The notes under the pieces: generated by a model
What the model was told of the DNA's origin: nothing
Database searches by the model: none
What the model saw: only the letters and a program-made list of their open reading frames with translations
Assembly: GCA_020723325.1 (NCBI GenBank)
Contig: DYJD01000008.1
Coordinates: 124,001 to 188,000, forward strand
DNA: 64,000 nucleotides
Direction: 5' to 3'
Source: Desulfosudis oleivorans
Lineage (GTDB): Bacteria > Desulfobacterota > Desulfobacteria > Desulfobacterales > SURF-7
Made by a program: the position numbers and the translations under genes
In this document: positions 2,651-19,692 of the stretch, piece after piece
Position numbering within the stretch: the stretch's first letter is position 1
Layout: every line of letters starts with the position of its first letter

Positions 2651-3142
2651 CTACATATCCCCGCGGGTGTAAACACGCACGTTTCCTGAAATATTGGCGC
2701 GTAAACCTTGAATTCCGAATACACCGAGACTGGCATCCCCCAGTTTGATATTGGTGCGAAAGTCATCAATCGCAACCGTAAAGTCCTTCATAGTCACACT
2801 GAGCGCAGTTACATCGGTTCCCTTTGAGGTTTTTTCCGTGACGAAGTCGATGTTGATCCCGTTGGGTGAGGAAATCCAGCCTCGCATGGTGGTGTCAGCC
2901 ATGCTGAGGGTGGCAGGTTCCCCGAACTGATTCACGGAGTCTGGATTCGACCATGAAAAAGTCTCAGCCTTGAGATTGATCCCGATCATTTTGCCGGCAT
3001 CAATGGAAAAACCGGCCTGACCGGTAATCTCATTCAGATCTGCATCGGACATTTCCGTCAACTTGGCATTGCTGGTCTGGGGGGTCAGTATCGTTCCGAT
3101 TGCCAATATAATTGCTGCCATTAGGAAACTAATTTTTTTCAT
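2651..3142 (-). CDS. Secreted TGQAG-motif protein behind four c-di-GMP riboswitches
   Basis: 163 residues from the ATG at 3142, preceded by GGGAG; a longer frame would start inside the leader RNA and lacks a ribosome site. Residues 1-25 form a signal peptide ending in TSNA. Immediately after it comes LTEMSDADLNEITGQAGFSI, the motif shared by five proteins in this window. The rest is predicted beta-rich (alternating polar and hydrophobic residues, many Asp/Asn/Ser/Thr) without cysteines. The motif matches the start of DUF6160/FilA-like proteins as I remember them; the family's function is not established. Expression is very likely under c-di-GMP control because four GEMM-I aptamers lie directly upstream on the same strand. 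It could be a subunit of a surface fibre or sheet; that is inference. Confidence 0.85.
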   Translation of the reverse strand: MKKISFLMAAIILAIGTILTPQTSNAKLTEMSDADLNEITGQAGFSIDAGKMIGINLKAETFSWSNPDSVNQFGEPATLSMADTTMRGWISSPNGINIDFVTEKTSKGTDVTALSVTMKDFTVAIDDFRTNIKLGDASLGVFGIQGLRANISGNVRVYTRGDM

Positions 3143-3170
3143 GTGTTTTCTCCCTTCTGTGAAACACACA

Positions 3171-3236
3171 GGCAACCCGGCTATCCTGCAGAGCAGGACC
3201 CGTGGCTTTCCGTCCCATGGTCACCCATGGTTTGGC
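3171..3236 (-). promoter_or_regulatory. Cyclic di-GMP-I (GEMM) riboswitch aptamer, copy proximal to the gene
   Basis: Read on the - strand, the 66 bases begin GCCAAACC, form a stem capped by a GUGA (GNRA) tetraloop, continue with GGGACGGAAAGCC, a second hairpin with tip CCTG-CTCTG-CAGG, and close with AGCCGGGTTGCC. These are the conserved blocks of the GEMM-I aptamer. The base equivalent to Vc2 G20 is G, predicting c-di-GMP rather than cGAMP binding. Only 28 bases separate it from the ATG at 3142. This spacer holds the ribosome site and a possible TGTTT/AAACA stem around it, and has no terminator hairpin plus U-tract, so translational control is more likely. Confidence 0.93.
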
Positions 3237-3245
3237 GTTGAAGGA

Positions 3246-3311
3246 GGCAACCCGGCTATCCTGCAGAACAGGACCCGTGGCTTTCCGTCCCACAGTTACC
3301 CGTGGTTTGGC
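3246..3311 (-). promoter_or_regulatory. Cyclic di-GMP-I (GEMM) riboswitch aptamer, second from the gene
   Basis: A 66-base copy of the same architecture, nine bases upstream (in transcript sense) of the proximal copy. Its first stem is CCACGG-GUAA-CUGUGG where the neighbours have CCAUGG/CCAUGG. The U-A pair has become C-G and a G-C has become G-U, so pairing is kept while the sequence changes. This supports a folded RNA under selection rather than a fresh DNA duplication. It keeps GGGACGGAAAGCC and the closing CCGGGTTGCC. Confidence 0.93.
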
Positions 3312-3344
3312 TTATATTAAAATCTGTTATAGTCGTTTTTTTCC

Positions 3345-3410
3345 GGCAACCCGGCTATCCTGTTGAACAGGACCCGTGGCTTTCCGTCCCATGGTCACCC
3401 ATGGTTTGGC
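3345..3410 (-). promoter_or_regulatory. Cyclic di-GMP-I (GEMM) riboswitch aptamer, third from the gene
   Basis: A 66-base copy with stem CCAUGG-GUGA-CCAUGG, the GGGACGGAAAGCC core and second-hairpin tip CCTG-TTCAA-CAGG. It is separated from the next copy toward the gene by a 33-base linker (3312-3344) that has an A-rich rather than U-rich run in transcript sense, so no intrinsic terminator is evident between the aptamers. Confidence 0.93.
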
Positions 3411-3436
3411 GTAAAAATCGGTTCGTGCTATGAACA

Positions 3437-3502
3437 GGCAACCCGGCTATCCTGTTGAACAGGACCCGTGGCTTTCCGTCCCATGGTTACCCATGGTTTG
3501 GC
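3437..3502 (-). promoter_or_regulatory. Cyclic di-GMP-I (GEMM) riboswitch aptamer, first transcribed copy
   Basis: A 66-base copy with stem CCAUGG-GUAA-CCAUGG and the same core and closing stem. It is the 5'-most of four copies, about 90 bases after the predicted transcription start from the promoter at 3600-3628. The 26-base linker to the next copy (3411-3436) contains a short run of five Ts in transcript sense but no strong hairpin just before it. Confidence 0.93.
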
Positions 3503-3599
3503 GTGCTTGTTACTCTTTTACCCATGTCTATTTTCTCGCAATCCAGAAAACAGGCATGGACTCCCGGCAGCTTGTCAAAGAACATACCTATACACTGAT

Positions 3600-3628
3600 A
3601 ATATAAAGATTCGACCCAGGGATGTCAA
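3600..3628 (-). promoter_or_regulatory. Predicted sigma-70 promoter for the four-riboswitch leader
   Basis: On the - strand there is a perfect TTGACA (3628-3623), a 17-base spacer and TATATT (3605-3600). Transcription would start near 3593 and give a leader of about 450 bases holding all four GEMM aptamers before the ATG at 3142. A second TTGACA at 3578-3573 has no matching -10 element. The rest of 3503-3766 contains no gene that I can support. Confidence 0.6.
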
Positions 3629-3670
3629 ACAAATCTTTTTGGGGGGCAGGGGTCAGTGATGAGCATATGG

Positions 3671-3760
3671 AAGTCAGAATTCAGAAGTCAGAAGCCAGAA
3701 TAGAAAAATAATATCTATTTGTTACCTATTCTGAATTCCGGCCCCTGACTCCTGAATACC
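3671..3760. repeat. Low-complexity AGTCAGAATTC-type intergenic repeat with inverted-repeat arms
   Basis: The stretch repeats variants of AAGTCAGAATTCAGAAGTC and then, after an AT-rich centre, the complementary TATTCTGAATTCCGG...CTGACTCCTGAATACC. The arms can pair into a long imperfect hairpin just downstream of the barrel gene ending at 3767 and could act as a transcript end. A related sequence occurs at 63096-63129. Confidence 0.55.
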
Positions 3761-3766
3761 TGCTTT

Positions 3767-5599
3767 TTATTGTTTCTTAAAGGGATTGATGGATGATTTG
3801 ATTTTTTCAACAGTGAATTTGAGATCCTGCTTCAGCTTTTTGAATTTTTCCTTTTTGCGTACAGCGGTTTCTTCCGGCACAGTGACGGGTTTGGTAATGC
3901 CCAGGCTGAAAATGTGGGCAAAAAATTTGAATTTCACATGGGACCCGGCGTATTGGCTTTGGGAGGTGCGGGTGAACCTATAGGAGTTGAGGTTTTGGCT
4001 GGTTCCGGCAGGAATCCAGTAATCACCGGTATCGGCATAGGAATAGCCCACGTCTATAGATGCGCCTTCCTTGTTTTTCAGGCCCAGTCCAATTCCGTAT
4101 TTTTTCATATCCGGCAGGCTGCCGAGGCTGAAGTCGGTGATTTCCACTGAGGATTGCCGGTCTTCATAGCCAAAGCGCAGGCACAGGGCCGGGGAAACAT
4201 CAAATTCCAGGCCGTAGCTCCAGTGAAAAGTGTCATGCAGGCCGAACTCGTTGACAATCGCGCGATTGCCATGGGTATGGCCGGACAGCTTGGCCAGCTT
4301 CAGGGCCTGGATGTCTTGATCAAAGTGCAGTTTCATTTCCTGTAACACCGACCAGTCAGCCCAGTGCACATCGCACAGCAGCCGCAATTTCTTGATGGGT
4401 GAAAGCATGATGCCGGCCTGGATGCGTTGGGGGAATTGATACTCAGTGGTCACAACACCTTTTTGGTACGGCACAGGATGGGTGGGCAGATCTAGAATAG
4501 CGGATTGGGTTTCCAAGAGCGGGGAGCTTCCATACCATTTCACCATGGATTGGAAATAATAGGAATAGGTGAATTTGTATTGACCGGTCATTTCATTGCG
4601 GATGGGGCTCTGATAAACCGCGCCAAGGGAAAAATATTGGTTCGGTTCCCATAGCATTCCAAAATTGTAAGTGGGACTGAACCAGTCATTCATCCGGAGC
4701 TGTATTTCCATGACCGGCACCCAGGGATTGATGCCGCCGCCGAAAAAGGGCGGAGGAAAGGTTTCCTGGGAAATGATGGGAATATTCAAATCCTTTGTGG
4801 CCTTGCCCAGGATTCGGGTAAGGGCGGTCATGTGGCTGGGACTGCGGCGCAGGCCCTTGACACCGAAATTGGTCATGCCGGCGGCTGCGCTGATACCCAC
4901 TGAAAAAGTGTCACTGACCTTAAAACCTGCCCCTGGCGCCAGATAATTGATGCGTTGGTGATAGACCTCCTTGCCAAAAAACATATTCGGGTCGCCGAAT
5001 CGCCAGTATTCCTTATAGCCGCCTTCGGCAAATTGATCCATGAATATCTGGCGATGCTGCTTGTGGGAAAAGCCGCCGGAAAAAGGCGAAACAACTCCTC
5101 TGGCAAAGCTCCATCTGGAACCGGGCTTGGTATAGGCCTGGGCGGATTGGGGCATAGCCATAACGGGAGAAAAATGAATCGGCCCCTTGATCGGCAAAAA
5201 AAGGTCGGTACTGGTGCTTTTACCTTCAACTCCCCAGAGGGGGTCCGGTTCCTGGCCTGGGCCTGGGCCGTAAGTATTCATGAATCCATCGAAATCCGAA
5301 TCCGGATAAGTGGTAACTTTACGAATGGTTTGGACAACGAGAAGGCCGCTGCCCTTGAGTTTGCCTTCCGGTAATTTGGTGAGTCCGGCCGGATTGAAAT
5401 GGATGGAGGCTATGCCCGGAGGCCGGGCCGTAACTGTATTGCCCAAGGCAATTGAAACAGGATCCACGGCCATCTGTTCATTATAAGCAGCCCTGCAAAT
5501 GGTCGGCCCAAATATCATCAGCACCGTCACCGCCATGAGGGCCGGAATTCGAGTGCTGAACCGGATTTTTTTTATATTCAATAAGTCTTTGATGATCAT
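3767..5599 (-). CDS. FadL/OmpP1-like outer-membrane barrel protein
   Basis: 610 residues with a signal peptide of about 37 residues (hydrophobic ALMAVTVLMIFGP, cleavage after CRA). The early part has SIALGNTVTARPPGIASIHFNPAGLTKL, matching the FadL-family N-terminal signature (GNTxxA...AaihfNPAGlt). The body has many alternating-residue strands ending in aromatic residues, including repeated FGMLWEPNQYFSLGAVYQSP and GYEDRQSS blocks, as in 14-strand FadL barrels that move hydrophobic compounds across the outer membrane. It is longer than E. coli FadL (about 450), mostly in the N-terminal half, and has a lysine-rich C-terminal tail (KKEKFKKLKQ). It is the last gene of an operon C39 peptidase - SPOR barrel - FadL-like (8337 to 3767), 15 bases after the SPOR-barrel gene. 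Its cargo is unknown; in this setting it may serve export or anchoring of the TGQAG proteins. Confidence 0.8.
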   Translation of the reverse strand: MIIKDLLNIKKIRFSTRIPALMAVTVLMIFGPTICRAAYNEQMAVDPVSIALGNTVTARPPGIASIHFNPAGLTKLPEGKLKGSGLLVVQTIRKVTTYPDSDFDGFMNTYGPGPGQEPDPLWGVEGKSTSTDLFLPIKGPIHFSPVMAMPQSAQAYTKPGSRWSFARGVVSPFSGGFSHKQHRQIFMDQFAEGGYKEYWRFGDPNMFFGKEVYHQRINYLAPGAGFKVSDTFSVGISAAAGMTNFGVKGLRRSPSHMTALTRILGKATKDLNIPIISQETFPPPFFGGGINPWVPVMEIQLRMNDWFSPTYNFGMLWEPNQYFSLGAVYQSPIRNEMTGQYKFTYSYYFQSMVKWYGSSPLLETQSAILDLPTHPVPYQKGVVTTEYQFPQRIQAGIMLSPIKKLRLLCDVHWADWSVLQEMKLHFDQDIQALKLAKLSGHTHGNRAIVNEFGLHDTFHWSYGLEFDVSPALCLRFGYEDRQSSVEITDFSLGSLPDMKKYGIGLGLKNKEGASIDVGYSYADTGDYWIPAGTSQNLNSYRFTRTSQSQYAGSHVKFKFFAHIFSLGITKPVTVPEETAVRKKEKFKKLKQDLKFTVEKIKSSINPFKKQ

Positions 5600-5614: not shown

Positions 5615-7546
5615 CTAAAAATTGAACGGGATGGAAAGGGACAATGAAAAATCCGAAGCGTCATTGGTCAATCCTTTTGATAAAGAGATATTGATGGAGC
5701 GTGTCGGGGAAAGACGCCAGCCGGTACCAAGTGTGAAATTGGCGCTGGCAGATTCTGCTATGGGTATCCGCTCTTTTTGATATACATATTCTCCACCAAA
5801 CGAATACGAATAGCTCAGATTGATATTCATGTTCAATTGATATGAAAGGGCATAGCCCAACCCGAACCGGACGCCGATATTTTCACCGGATCTAACCTCT
5901 TTTAAAGTTCGGCCGTATCGCGGATTGCTTAAGCCGGTCACTGGCAAAGCATGGCCAAAAGAAATGCCGCCGTAACAAACAACCGGATCCATGGAATGGT
6001 TCAGGGAAAGACCGGCGGTGAGAGATTTAACTCCGCTGCTGGTGGACAGTTCTGTATTTGGATCTACCTCGTACGGACTTCTTCCCAGGGGCGCTGAAAA
6101 GCCGAAACTCAGAATGCCGGGAGGGAGGGTGCCGCCGGCTTTGAGGGGCTGCCACTGGAGACTTAAGGAGGCATCCCCCAGGTCGGTGACCTGTTTTGCA
6201 TCTTCCGTTCCCAGGCCATGGTAGTTGTAAACAAAAGGCACACTACCGCCCAACGTAATATTATCGAGAACAGCAAAGACCAAGCCAAGAGAGTTGACAA
6301 GGTTATGCTGGCTGCGGTGTTCGATCTTATTCGGTTTATTCCAATTGGCGGAATTAGTGAGGGTGTCATAGGAATTGTAGGTATAAGAAAGGCTGTAATC
6401 AAAGCCCACACTGCCTTTCTTGGCAAGGGTGTATTCACGGCCGGTGGCTGAAAGTATTTCCGACTCTTCTTCCTGCTTTTCTTCTTCTGTGATTTCGAGG
6501 ATTTTTCGAACATCGGCCTCTTCCCGAAGCTCATTGACCTTTTCCTGTAGCGCTTCGATCTGTTCTTTCAATTGACGAGCGGTGGCGCTGTCAATGGCCG
6601 ATTCCTCTGTTCCGCCGCCGCCGCCGCCGCCTTCATGCATTGCGGTAAAAGGATCATCCTCTTCCGCTTTGTCTGATTTGGTTGCTTTTTGGGAAAGAAC
6701 TATGGGTTCGGCGTCTTTTTCTGAAAAACCGACGCCGGCTGCCTGGCCGCGGATCTTGGAAAGATCGCCTTTGGGGATACTTTGACCGGTCTGCCCATCC
6801 ACAGTGGCAAGTTCAGTGGAAGGCACCACCGCTCCGGTCCGCCCGTCCACTGTAGCCATTTCTTCCGAGGGAATGACACTGCCGGTCCGCCCATCCACCG
6901 TAGCCATTTCATTGGAAGATATTACCGTTCCACTTTGTGCGGCAATCTGGGAGAGCTCTTCAGTTTTTAATAGTGCACCGGTCTGTCCATCGATTCGCGC
7001 CATTTCATCAGCATTGATCACCGAGCCTGTACCGGCGGCAATTTGGGACAGCTCTTCCGGCGAGATTACTCCACCCTCGCTTGTTTTTGTTAAATAACCG
7101 GAAATACTTATGGGCTTAATAGAGTTAACGGCAGTAATGGTTGCCGGGAGATTTTCGAGACTCTTAAATTGGGCAGCGGCAGATGTGGCTTGCTTTATCG
7201 ACCGGTATTCGCCGATTCGAACCACATAAAGTTTTTGCCCTTTATCGTTAAGGGTCTGAAAGATATACGGCTCATAACCTTTGGCACGAAGGGTCGTCAC
7301 CATAGACTGGGCGTTTTCTTTAATTAGAAATATGCCGGTTTGAATGGCGAAGCCCGAAGGTGTGGGCGCCTCCTTTTTGGTGGGAACCGTGTTTTGGGCA
7401 CTCGGCGTCGCGGCCAATTCTCCTGATAGTTGTTCTGACTGGCCCCCAAATGCCGAAAAAGCCGGCATGATACAAACTATGGCGAATATTGTTGCTAAAT
7501 GCAAACCAAGTCGTTTTGTCATGTTCCCCCTGTTGTTGCCGATCAT
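5615..7546 (-). CDS. SPOR-domain outer-membrane barrel protein with seven TGQAG-like 16-residue repeats
   Basis: 643 residues; the ATG at 7546 has AGGAGG eight bases upstream. Order: signal peptide (to about residue 35, ending AFSAFG); SPOR-like peptidoglycan-binding domain 64-142 (GFAIQTGIF...LYVVRIGEY); seven tandem 16-residue repeats at 162-273, consensus PS.E[LM]ATVDG[RQ]TG.VI; acidic linker with a run of seven glycines (306-312); coiled coil 322-364 rich in E/K/L; and a C-terminal beta-barrel-like domain 370-643 ending SLSIPFNF, with the terminal Phe typical of BAM-inserted barrels. The barrel resembles the phenol-MetA-degradation/transporter type. The repeats copy the N-terminal motif of the five secreted proteins here. 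It could span periplasm and outer membrane and receive, hold or export those proteins. Its role is inferred, the domain layout is seen. Confidence 0.8.
   Translation of the reverse strand: MIGNNRGNMTKRLGLHLATIFAIVCIMPAFSAFGGQSEQLSGELAATPSAQNTVPTKKEAPTPSGFAIQTGIFLIKENAQSMVTTLRAKGYEPYIFQTLNDKGQKLYVVRIGEYRSIKQATSAAAQFKSLENLPATITAVNSIKPISISGYLTKTSEGGVISPEELSQIAAGTGSVINADEMARIDGQTGALLKTEELSQIAAQSGTVISSNEMATVDGRTGSVIPSEEMATVDGRTGAVVPSTELATVDGQTGQSIPKGDLSKIRGQAAGVGFSEKDAEPIVLSQKATKSDKAEEDDPFTAMHEGGGGGGGTEESAIDSATARQLKEQIEALQEKVNELREEADVRKILEITEEEKQEEESEILSATGREYTLAKKGSVGFDYSLSYTYNSYDTLTNSANWNKPNKIEHRSQHNLVNSLGLVFAVLDNITLGGSVPFVYNYHGLGTEDAKQVTDLGDASLSLQWQPLKAGGTLPPGILSFGFSAPLGRSPYEVDPNTELSTSSGVKSLTAGLSLNHSMDPVVCYGGISFGHALPVTGLSNPRYGRTLKEVRSGENIGVRFGLGYALSYQLNMNINLSYSYSFGGEYVYQKERIPIAESASANFTLGTGWRLSPTRSINISLSKGLTNDASDFSLSLSIPFNF
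6728..7063 (-). repeat. Seven in-frame 48-bp repeats coding the TGQAG-like units
   Basis: Seven consecutive 16-codon units inside the SPOR-barrel gene. In order the cores read EELSQIAAGTGSVI, DEMARIDGQTGALL, EELSQIAAQSGTVI, NEMATVDGRTGSVI, EEMATVDGRTGAVV, TELATVDGQTGQSI and GDLSKIRGQAAGVG. Units 4-6 are closest to each other, and units 1 and 3 form a second type with IAA in place of VDG, so there were both old and recent duplications. Confidence 0.95.
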
Positions 7547-7596: not shown

Positions 7597-8337
7597 TTAT
7601 TTTTTGTAATGCTGTATTATTCCCGGGAAATTATCAATACGCCTTTCCGGCATGCTTAATAACGGCTGTTGTTTGAAAAGGTACTGGTAGGCCGTGTCTT
7701 CATCAATGAAACGAAGGTCCGACTCCTTTAGCCGCAACGCATTTAGTTCCTTGCCGCCTTCCGGATAAATAACGAAAAGCACGTTTTCATACCACATATC
7801 TTTGAATTCGCTCAACGTATAGCTGGAATGCCCTTTCCAGGGGTCGGCCAAGAAGACATGCCCTTTATAAATTCCTTTAAATACGGTGAAATGTCGATAA
7901 CCAAAGACTTTTATCGGCAAGATGCAAGGCTTGCCGAGTTCTTCCAGATCGGAAATCTCCGCTTTATACCCTACGCCTTTATAACCGAGCACGGTTACGA
8001 ATTTTTTCATATCCAACAATGAGAAGGCGCGTCTTTCAGCAATCTGCTCACTGTCGCCGTAGCGCAGCAGGCCGTGAATGACTTGTCTTTCGGTCAGCTT
8101 CTCACCCAGATAGAAATTGATCAAGGTTGAGAGGGCCGCTGATCCGCAACTATAATCAAATTCCTGGCGAATAATGCGTTCGTCAAGAATTTCGGAAAGC
8201 GGTTTAACAACCGGGCGAATGACTAATAGGTTGCTCACTTCCGGATTTATGCGCAATTCACCGGGCGGATTTTCTTTGGCGGCATCTTCTCCGCCGACAA
8301 GTCCGAACAACAGAAGGAAAACAATAAAAATTTCCAT
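7597..8337 (-). CDS. C39-family (bacteriocin-processing-type) cysteine peptidase, exported
   Basis: 246 residues with an N-terminal hydrophobic segment MEIFIVFLLLFGLVGG that serves as signal or anchor. The papain-like C39 core follows: RQEFDYSCGSAALSTL (residues 57-72) carries the oxyanion Gln and catalytic Cys, YRHFTVFKG the catalytic His, and FLADPWKG the Asp. No ABC-transporter parts are attached, so it is a stand-alone protease acting outside the cytoplasm. C39 enzymes cut leader peptides after a double glycine or Gly-Ala; the five secreted proteins nearby carry ELxxITGQAG after their signal peptides, a plausible substrate site. It heads the operon with the SPOR barrel (50-base gap) and FadL-like genes. 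From memory, Acinetobacter fil loci also pair a FilA-type protein with a C39 peptidase. Confidence 0.85.
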   Translation of the reverse strand: MEIFIVFLLLFGLVGGEDAAKENPPGELRINPEVSNLLVIRPVVKPLSEILDERIIRQEFDYSCGSAALSTLINFYLGEKLTERQVIHGLLRYGDSEQIAERRAFSLLDMKKFVTVLGYKGVGYKAEISDLEELGKPCILPIKVFGYRHFTVFKGIYKGHVFLADPWKGHSSYTLSEFKDMWYENVLFVIYPEGGKELNALRLKESDLRFIDEDTAYQYLFKQQPLLSMPERRIDNFPGIIQHYKK

Positions 8338-18685: not shown

Positions 18686-19336
18686 TTAGTCGTGAGCCAT
18701 GATGCCGATGTGGACGTTGTTGGCAGCCGCAGCTCCGCCGGCGCCGGTGATGGTGGTGGTGCCGCCGCCGTTGAAGGTTCTGATCAAGACGTCGGCGTTG
18801 CCAGCAGCGCCGTCAAAAGCGGTAGATGCAGTCGGGGTGCCTTTGAACAGACCGATGGTTTTGGTTTCGCCGAAGTTGGCAATCTGGATTCCGTTGGGCA
18901 AGCTGATGACGACTGCCACATCGGACACTCTGTCAGCTGTAGCAGAGGTTCTCAGGGCGCTCATCTGCAAGCCGCCGAAACGAGCTGCATCACCAGGTTG
19001 TACACCGGGAACTCCGTTTCCGGCCACGGCAAGGGTGAACTCCGTCCGGCTGACGATGTCGATGTCCAGGGTTCTGGAGCCCAGGAAGGAAATTTCTTGG
19101 GTGGAGCCGTCGGTTCTGGTCAGCAACCAGTTGTCACCGGCCAAAGAATCAAAGGTTTCTTCTTCATCACCATAACCGCTGATCCATTGGCTCTTTTCAA
19201 TGCGGATCGTGTTGAGGAAGATGCTCACGCCAGCCTGACCGGTGAGGTCGTTCAGGTCTGAATCGGAAATGGTGTCCAGTGCGAAAGCTGAAAAGGGAAT
19301 CATCATCATTGCCAGAAAAATTGCCAGTTTCTTCAT
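18686..19336 (-). CDS. Secreted TGQAG-motif protein behind a single c-di-GMP riboswitch
   Basis: 216 residues from the ATG at 19336, with AGGAGG eight bases upstream; the longer frame runs back into the riboswitch. Signal peptide MKKLAIFLAMMMIPFSAFA, then LDTISDSDLNDLTGQAGVSIFL. The body contains RIEKSQWISGYGDEEETFDS, a beta-rich middle, and a Gly/Ala-rich C-terminus (GGGTTTITGAGGAAAANN) like that of fibre-forming or self-packing beta proteins. It is a single-gene unit: promoter 19720-19748, long leader, GEMM aptamer, gene, terminator. GC is higher than in the neighbouring glycan genes. The product is probably made in quantity and exported; function unknown. Confidence 0.85.
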   Translation of the reverse strand: MKKLAIFLAMMMIPFSAFALDTISDSDLNDLTGQAGVSIFLNTIRIEKSQWISGYGDEEETFDSLAGDNWLLTRTDGSTQEISFLGSRTLDIDIVSRTEFTLAVAGNGVPGVQPGDAARFGGLQMSALRTSATADRVSDVAVVISLPNGIQIANFGETKTIGLFKGTPTASTAFDGAAGNADVLIRTFNGGGTTTITGAGGAAAANNVHIGIMAHD

Positions 19337-19340
19337 TTGT

Positions 19341-19379
19341 CTTTCCTCCTGAAAGTAAGATGTTGGTAATCTTACCACA
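19341..19379 (-). promoter_or_regulatory. Riboswitch expression platform with ribosome-site hairpin
   Basis: Between aptamer and ATG the transcript can form GTAAGAT/ATCTTAC (seven pairs) or, exclusively, GGTAA/TTACC. Just after, CTTTC-AGGAG-GAAAG (19355-19341) folds the Shine-Dalgarno into a hairpin. No U-tract follows, so the switch probably controls translation. Confidence 0.5.
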
Positions 19380-19445
19380 GGCAGCCCGACTATCCACCCC
19401 ATGTGGACTCGCGGCTTTCCGTCCCACGGTTACCCGTGGTTTGGC
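19380..19445 (-). promoter_or_regulatory. Cyclic di-GMP-I (GEMM) riboswitch aptamer
   Basis: Again exactly 66 bases: GCCAAACC, stem CCACGG-GUAA-CCGUGG, GGGACGGAAAGCC core, second hairpin, and closing AGTCGGGCTGCC. The terminal stem changes (AGTCGGGCTGCC against AGCCGGGTTGCC) show it is older than a simple copy of the 3.2-kb cluster. The specificity base is G, as for c-di-GMP. Confidence 0.93.
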
Positions 19446-19692
19446 TCTTACTATGGTACTTGGTAAAACACACTAAAAAAGGAATTCATGTAATCGATTA
19501 AGCACTTTTTTGATTTAAGGCTTGATCACCTCCTTTTCTAAGTTAAACCCATAATGAATCTTCATTGCTATGATCAACCAAGTTATAGAATTGAAACTCG
19601 ATTGAGTTTGGTGAACTTTGTTTAGCATGTGTTTTTTTAAAAATCAAGTAAAATTTACAATCGATCTTGTTTTTAAACTTGATTAAATCACA

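Follow-up and report, generated by a model that had tools for sequence, protein, structure and literature searches.

Four consecutive c-di-GMP-I aptamers that appear to share a single expression platform upstream of a DUF6160 gene in Desulfosudis oleivorans

Sharp riboswitch responses are known from two cooperating aptamers on one expression platform, as in the glycine riboswitch, and from the repetition of whole switches, as among class I cyclic di-GMP (c-di-GMP-I) riboswitches. A census of 44,270 named species plus environmental sequence counted 347 doublets and 12 triplets of the latter and, in the excerpts used here, listed the class only under multiple expression platforms, quadruplets being given for glycine (PMC9481103). 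In the Bacillus thuringiensis triplet Bc3-5, as excerpted, each aptamer has a platform of its own (PMC4759541). A further survey, also drawn on in excerpt, describes an enrichment of c-di-GMP tandems in Thermodesulfobacteriota and includes a triplet of c-di-GMP-I; taking all classes together, it detected terminators in 805 of the 1,442 stretches between aptamers, so that terminator-free stretches of this kind are known in general (PMC12452182). An array of at least four c-di-GMP-I aptamers was not found in the literature covered, namely, the available portions of open-licence papers. Here we describe four such aptamers on the minus strand of a 64,000-nucleotide (nt) stretch of Desulfosudis oleivorans DNA (contig DYJD01000008.1, positions 124,001 to 188,000; referred to as the window, within which its features are numbered), where they precede a gene for a DUF6160 protein. 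The riboswitch class is known; its architecture at this locus looks new.

Like Bc3-5, the array has several c-di-GMP-I aptamers in one 5' leader followed by a surface-protein gene, but Bc3-5 has three copies with their own terminators (PMC4759541, excerpts), whereas here there are four (up to six in relatives), no terminator was found between them, and the platform appears to be translational. With the doublets and triplets of the census the array shares aptamer class, expected ligand, and a single leader, and it differs in having four copies, the excerpted census giving multiple platforms and no quadruplet for this class (PMC9481103). The tandem glycine riboswitch is similar in that several like aptamers feed one platform; it has two aptamers of another class, and where four occur they form two whole riboswitches, one after the other (PMC9481103, excerpts). 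Cooperativity is a feature of that system; in the present array it would be hypothetical. Finally, the "adjacent aptamer" riboswitches likewise have no terminator between aptamers, but in the excerpted survey c-di-GMP is enriched in the tandem class with separate platforms, with no c-di-GMP array of more than three (PMC12452182).

Searching with the Rfam model RF01051 placed the aptamers, in order of transcription, at 3437 to 3502 (67.6 bits), 3345 to 3410 (66.4 bits), 3246 to 3311 (64.8 bits), and 3171 to 3236 (64.6 bits), against a gathering cut-off of 35 bits, and a direct-repeat search recovered the same four copies. The four units are c-di-GMP-I aptamers. Linker 1 (26 nt, 3411 to 3436) and linker 2 (33 nt, 3312 to 3344) contain no terminator-like or Shine-Dalgarno (SD)-like site, and aptamers 3 and 4 are separated by 9 nt. 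A preliminary description of this DNA had proposed four 66-nt aptamers in 332 bases with linkers of 26, 33, and 9 bases and had suggested RF01051 as the check; coordinates, scores, and repeat search all agree with it. The program cmscan listed three of the four copies, probably through overlap removal, as neighboring matches overlap by a few bases; the other RF01051 search lists all four. An assembly artefact is unlikely: the copies are 91 to 98% identical, every linker is different, and related arrays occur in separate assemblies.

We found this poly-aptamer architecture to be rare and recurrent. RF01051 was run over 40 genomes (that of the window and 39 relatives), and arrays of at least four copies were present in six. 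Besides the window array (W4), there are four copies each in Desulfobacteraceae SURF_7 (G009), D. oleivorans FI88_44_71 (G010), and G031, six in G020, and five plus four (G028a and G028c) in Desulforapulum autotrophicum FI88_52_17, the three strains named being metagenome-assembled genomes (MAGs). Two further MAGs, Syntrophaceae bog_1110 (Syn48) and Deltaproteobacteria Zod_Metabat.965 (Del63), carry four and three copies, respectively. W4 and these eight related loci make up nine Desulfobacterota-type arrays of three to six copies, with 38 aptamers.

A strict triplet pattern matched 7 of 389 sampled genomes of the order, six of them being these arrays, and 2 of 395 sampled genomes of the phylum, both with arrays already found; the backwards control matched one genome in each sample. 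One match in the order sample, G154, was dropped as chance, there being no RF01051 match there. In a collection of 84,980 species, 75 stretches matched the pattern, and RF01051, applied to all of them, identified 14 as arrays of at least three copies, in 11 genomes; the other 61 were taken as chance or other repeats. The 11 genomes comprise five of Desulfobacterota type (SURF_7, FI88_44_71, FI88_52_17, bog_1110, and Zod_Metabat.965), five of Clostridia type by name, and one uncultured bacterium, and in the six that are not of Desulfobacterota type the arrays have three to five copies, one five-copy array including a copy below the cut-off (32.5 bits). A run of RF01051 over 242 genomes of the order, which gave the best 150 matches, was not used for array counts. 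The preliminary description had called a run of four exceptional. It does exceed the doublets and triplets of the census, as excerpted (PMC9481103), but it is not a one-off, given the four to six copies in relatives and the Clostridia-type arrays. It looks as though the arrangement is a design that has been retained and not an accident, and its recurrence is perhaps convergent.

The aptamer fold is well conserved. Over the 38 aptamers, 97.2% of cells are paired, compared with only 17.6 to 52.8% in slid alignment controls. Both sides have changed at 11 of the 21 pairs, and the covariation score was reached by none of 500 shuffles, while the number of further pair types was reached by 30 of 500. 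In the window, P2 of copy 3 has one U-A pair changed to C-G and one G-C pair changed to G-U. The P2 loop is a GNRA tetraloop in all 38 copies (GUAA in 23, GCAA in 10, GUGA in 4, and GCGA in 1), including the four in the window, and the conserved CC end is kept in 37. The covarying stems and GNRA loops noted in the preliminary description are thus borne out, and its view that the copies are maintained as RNA is supported by the covariation. Position 20, placed with the help of the crystal numbering and of two published accounts, is G in all four window copies and in 36 of the 38. According to the excerpted sources, G at this position selects c-di-GMP and A selects cyclic GMP-AMP (cGAMP) (PMC9262584 and PMC6274999).

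An SD and a start codon follow only the last copy. In the window, the SD AAGGGAG (3150 to 3156) stands 7 nt before the ATG at 3142, both being at most 31 nt from the last aptamer, and SD-like motifs occur in none of the 29 internal linkers of the nine arrays. Consensus scans, by the terminator rule in the window and by a script version of that rule in the nine arrays, placed no terminator-like site between copies; the one such site of G031 falls beyond the array, over the start codon. As the stretches between copies yielded no expression platform, these are not four complete riboswitches in series, and the copies look like they share one platform, located after the last aptamer, as in a glycine-like multi-aptamer riboswitch. 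Directly before the SD, a possible platform hairpin, CUGUG-UGUUU-CACAG (3157 to 3171), is predicted, and it also appears when the full leader of the window is folded, in the best structure. CUG...CAG is found at this place in all nine sequences, and in G020, G031, and Syn48 the hairpin has extra inner pairs of unrelated sequence.

The tails of the copies differ with their place in the array. In the window, an anti-SD-like CCUCC (3243 to 3247) spans the end of aptamer 3 and the start of the 9-nt linker. In seven of the nine arrays, the penultimate copy is followed immediately by the trinucleotide TCC, whereas only 2 of the 20 remaining internal copies have this tail (Fisher P = 0.0007, a value that is uncorrected for relatedness and a guide only, the motif rules having been framed after the sequences were seen), and the last copies have a TGN tail in all nine. 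Linkers of 5 to 9 nt start with TC or CTC in 13 of 14 cases and those of 12 to 35 nt in none of 15; the copies tend to be arranged as close-set dyads.

We propose that the locus is a poly-aptamer c-di-GMP-I riboswitch, in which four aptamers act on one translation-level platform before the DUF6160 (FilA-like) gene and turn the gene on, a reading that we hold with little better than even confidence, the direction of control being its uncertain part. At low c-di-GMP, the CCUCC tail of the penultimate aptamer, together with other pairings, would hold the SD and keep translation off. When the aptamers are filled, their 3' GCC ends would be engaged, the terminal CUG...CAG hairpin could form, and the ribosome site would be freed. 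If several aptamers must fill, a sharper response than that of a single aptamer would be expected, and the steep, graded, or fail-safe response put forward in the preliminary description would be a possible consequence. The array could be an unusually sharp switch, and the natural series of three, four, five, and six aptamers, apparently with one platform and one gene family, offers a direct test of copy number versus steepness.

Several observations weigh against this proposal. A conserved P1 helix is not supported, as the 5' and 3' flanks of the copies pair no better than random (mean, -1.44 versus -1.59 kcal/mol); the RF01051 consensus displays no P1 pairs. Position 20 is A, the cGAMP type, in 2 of the 38 aptamers, the second copies of G031 (locus L119, 6349 to 6416) and Syn48 (the Syntrophaceae locus L132, 5304 to 5374), the rest of both arrays being of c-di-GMP type. 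Copy 2 of G020 (L115, 779 to 844) ends in UAAC instead of URCC and is without the C that we equate with the one contacting the ligand, perhaps because this copy is decaying. The count of zero terminator-like sites in the window (3100 to 3760) is not below that of shuffles (mean, 1.0; standard deviation, 1.2), and the script finds none at the Desulfonema magnum loci either, one of which is a doublet, so terminator-free doublets exist too. When the platforms are folded in isolation, CUG...CAG comes out best in only five of nine cases (G009, G020, G028c, G031, and Syn48). The isolated platform of the window prefers a competing hairpin that covers part of the SD, although a switch could well use two mutually exclusive predicted hairpins at its ribosome site. 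Leader folding is also not uniform. The predicted pairing of the SD with the last linker is 0.85 in G028c, 0.21 to 0.24 in W4, G010, and G028a, and at most 0.09 in the other five; in five leaders the upstream leader or the coding start competes for the SD, and a uniform thermodynamic anti-SD model was unsupported in 5 of 9. Lastly, the motifs were noticed first and counted afterwards, and the nine arrays are not independent, two being from one genus and two from one genome.

The position of aptamer 4 between CCUCC and the SD also bears on the direction of control. When folded around its ligand, aptamer 4 could join the CCUCC linker and the SD as a P1-like helix, so that translation would be shut at high c-di-GMP. 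This geometry and the strong SD-linker pairing predicted in G028c speak for such an OFF switch, but the same pairing is weak in most leaders. Moreover, c-di-GMP is generally expected to raise surface-fiber genes, and at a doublet of the same order (G026) the 3' strand of the aptamer itself forms part of the terminator, so that ON is predicted for this relative. We consider an OFF switch somewhat unlikely.

The number of copies could also be neutral, with unequal recombination making the arrays longer or shorter and with no aptamer mattering except the final one or two. The similarity between copies is 0.823 within an array, compared with 0.750 between genera for copies in the same place and 0.745 for those in different places; because it is higher within arrays, the copies must be renewed by duplication or conversion without losing their fold. 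Homogenization or reexpansion in each lineage would fit neutral copy number, as would the rarity of arrays (6 of 389 sampled genomes of the order) and the loss of the conserved C in copy 2 of G020. On the other hand, paired stems and CC ends are retained across the 38 copies as described above, and the gene family, the boxA-like element described below, and the platform remain associated across genera. Neutral copy number, too, looks unlikely to us.

The leader upstream of the array contains a boxA-like element, TGTTCTTTGACA (3573 to 3584), which we called by its YTCTTTGA-type core, taken here to be the boxA consensus. Such a motif lies within 400 nt upstream of all nine Desulfobacterota-type arrays, where 0.13 would be expected from shuffles, and was found at none of 10 other Desulfobacterota c-di-GMP-I loci and none of nine Clostridia-type arrays. 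G028a has the variant GATCTTTGACA, and the element of G020 sits further upstream. BoxA elements of ribosomal RNA (rRNA) operons have this core, early in the leader. The boxA element of suhB, a case of boxA control outside rRNA (PMC5725501, excerpts), is alike in this; the present element differs in preceding a riboswitch array and in being a candidate identified by its motif. We propose that it could act as an antitermination site, sparing RNA polymerase from Rho termination along a structured, untranslated leader of about 440 nt. Between the element and the array, a hairpin, CCATG...CATGG (3522 to 3559), is predicted, and hairpins of differing sequence follow the boxA-like element in the predicted folds of related leaders. 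The arrays let one ask whether long untranslated regulatory RNAs need antitermination.

Control could instead be exerted at transcription, with c-di-GMP setting the passage of polymerase through Rho-dependent termination in the leader and with boxA and Nus factors being part of the switch. The occurrence of the element at 9 of 9 arrays and 0 of 19 comparison loci is in line with this, as is the fact that boxA can control genes other than rRNA genes (PMC5725501, excerpts). Against it, the exact 12-mer TGTTCTTTGACA occurs three times in the genome, compared with once for the reversed control, and a search of this genome and five others found no 16S rRNA gene, and with it no host boxA for comparison. 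No tRNA lies in the 3-kb stretches around the two other exact sites. Overall, we regard transcription-level control as quite unlikely.

Further upstream, a sigma-70-type promoter, TTGACA-17-TATATT (3600 to 3628), is predicted with 11 of 12 consensus matches. The preliminary description had noted a consensus promoter here; the match itself stands, but the scan found two promoter-like sites where shuffles give 1.0, a count that by itself proves nothing, and the site is not clearly conserved, as the best match reaches 10 of 12 at one of the eight related loci and 8 or 9 at the others. The spacer between the leader and the FilD-like gene upstream contains a 14-nt direct repeat, GAAGTCAGAATTCA and GAAGTCAGAAGCCA (3670 to 3697).

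A succession of four whole riboswitches with separate platforms would give a pseudo-cooperative digital response like that of Bc3-5, and this is the published architecture of c-di-GMP-I tandems, as excerpted (PMC9481103 and PMC4759541). In keeping with it, the script that finds no terminator-like site between the copies of the nine arrays does find one at two doublets of the same order: at G026, an identical terminator-like sequence follows both aptamers, and at G003 one follows copy 2 by the scan and copy 1 by eye. These doublets share the aptamer class and the bacterial order with our arrays but differ in these terminator-like sequences beside the aptamers, in having no boxA-like element, and in their target genes. 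In the arrays, linkers down to 5 to 9 nt leave little room for a platform, and the internal linkers lack SD-like motifs. With no terminators found between copies, we rejected the series arrangement as very improbable. That the transcript mainly soaks up c-di-GMP as an RNA sponge is scarcely credible, as the array, despite its at least four binding sites per transcript and a leader that could be called rRNA-like, is joined to a single gene whose ribosome site is good, and evidence of a separate abundant RNA was not seen.

The Clostridia-type genomes have arrays of their own, with a platform that differs from the Desulfobacterota type. The platform strand of G047 and G067, CUUUGCGUCC, is complementary to the aptamer core, with matches of 8 to 10 nt in 15 of 16 copies and of 6 nt in one. 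This suggests a different route to control, capture of the platform by a single unfilled aptamer; in G069, the match is only 5 to 7 nt. Loci L128 to L131 and L133 are the Clostridia-type arrays of three to four aptamers that show this complementarity in 15 of 16 copies, and their targets are long open reading frames with signal-peptide-like starts (the gene is cut off in L133). A wider and more tentative proposal, which we think possible rather than probable, is that the arrays represent an undescribed conserved RNA device. In it, three to six c-di-GMP-I aptamers, partly arranged as dyads (a CUC-tailed copy, 5 to 9 nt, and the next copy), would jointly gate one ribosome site through competing anti-SD tails, with boxA antitermination protecting the leader and some arrays mixing c-di-GMP- and cGAMP-type copies. 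Clostridia-type genomes would have arrived independently at the same design of many aptamers and one platform, and in some of them the platform strand would be able to pair with almost all of the aptamer cores.

The controlled gene (2651 to 3142, minus strand) encodes a DUF6160 protein of 163 amino acids (PF19657, 34.6 bits; cut-off, 27) with a signal-peptide-like start. The small secreted-protein gene of the preliminary description is thus present, the signal peptide being predicted by eye. An AlphaFold2 model of the protein has a mean predicted local distance difference test score (pLDDT) of 58. A DUF6160 gene comes next after all nine Desulfobacterota-type arrays, and PF19657 is matched at an E value of 0.01 or better by 13 of 13 proteins (nine array targets and four singleton targets).

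Three genes on the same strand lie upstream of the leader. They encode a FadL/FilD-like outer-membrane protein (3767 to 5599; PF03349, 99.8 bits; NCBIfam FilD, 252 against a cut-off of 970), a FilC/FapF-like protein with a SPOR domain (5615 to 7546; PF05036, 44.2 bits; FilC, 170 against 630; FapF, 62, also below its cut-off), and a FilB/FapD-like C39 peptidase (7597 to 8337; PF03412, 59.7 bits; FilB, 206 against 475; FapD, 107, also below). The locus resembles the Fil and Fap surface-fiber systems in combining a C39 peptidase with FilC/FapF-like, FadL-like, and DUF6160/FilA-like proteins. It differs in that none of the NCBIfam Fil and Fap models scores above its curated cut-off in the window, for which reason we call it Fil-like only, and in that fiber formation is putative here. 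Relatives of at least one of the three Fil-like genes lie near the array in six of eight related loci, upstream on the same strand in five and on the other strand in G010; in G020, less than 700 nt lies upstream of the array, and in Del63 no Fil-like genes were seen. The arrays would tie c-di-GMP to a Fil/Fap-like locus of sulfate-reducer-type bacteria. The FilC-like protein has six copies of a motif (e.g., EMATVDGRTG) resembling DLNEITGQAG, of which the DUF6160 protein has a single copy; the motif had been noticed before the regular expression for it was composed, and it is perhaps a recognition element shared by both proteins.

The genome has seven RF01051 matches in total, the four array copies and three elsewhere. 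One of the latter is a single aptamer in the window (19376 to 19454, minus strand; 62.1 bits) before a second DUF6160/FilA-like gene (18686 to 19336, minus strand). This singleton is without a boxA-like leader, and by eye a longer inverted repeat downstream of it extends to the SD. The two other singletons (L120, 5598 to 5672, and L121, 6065 to 6152) precede genes with CxxCH-type motifs, apparently multiheme cytochromes.
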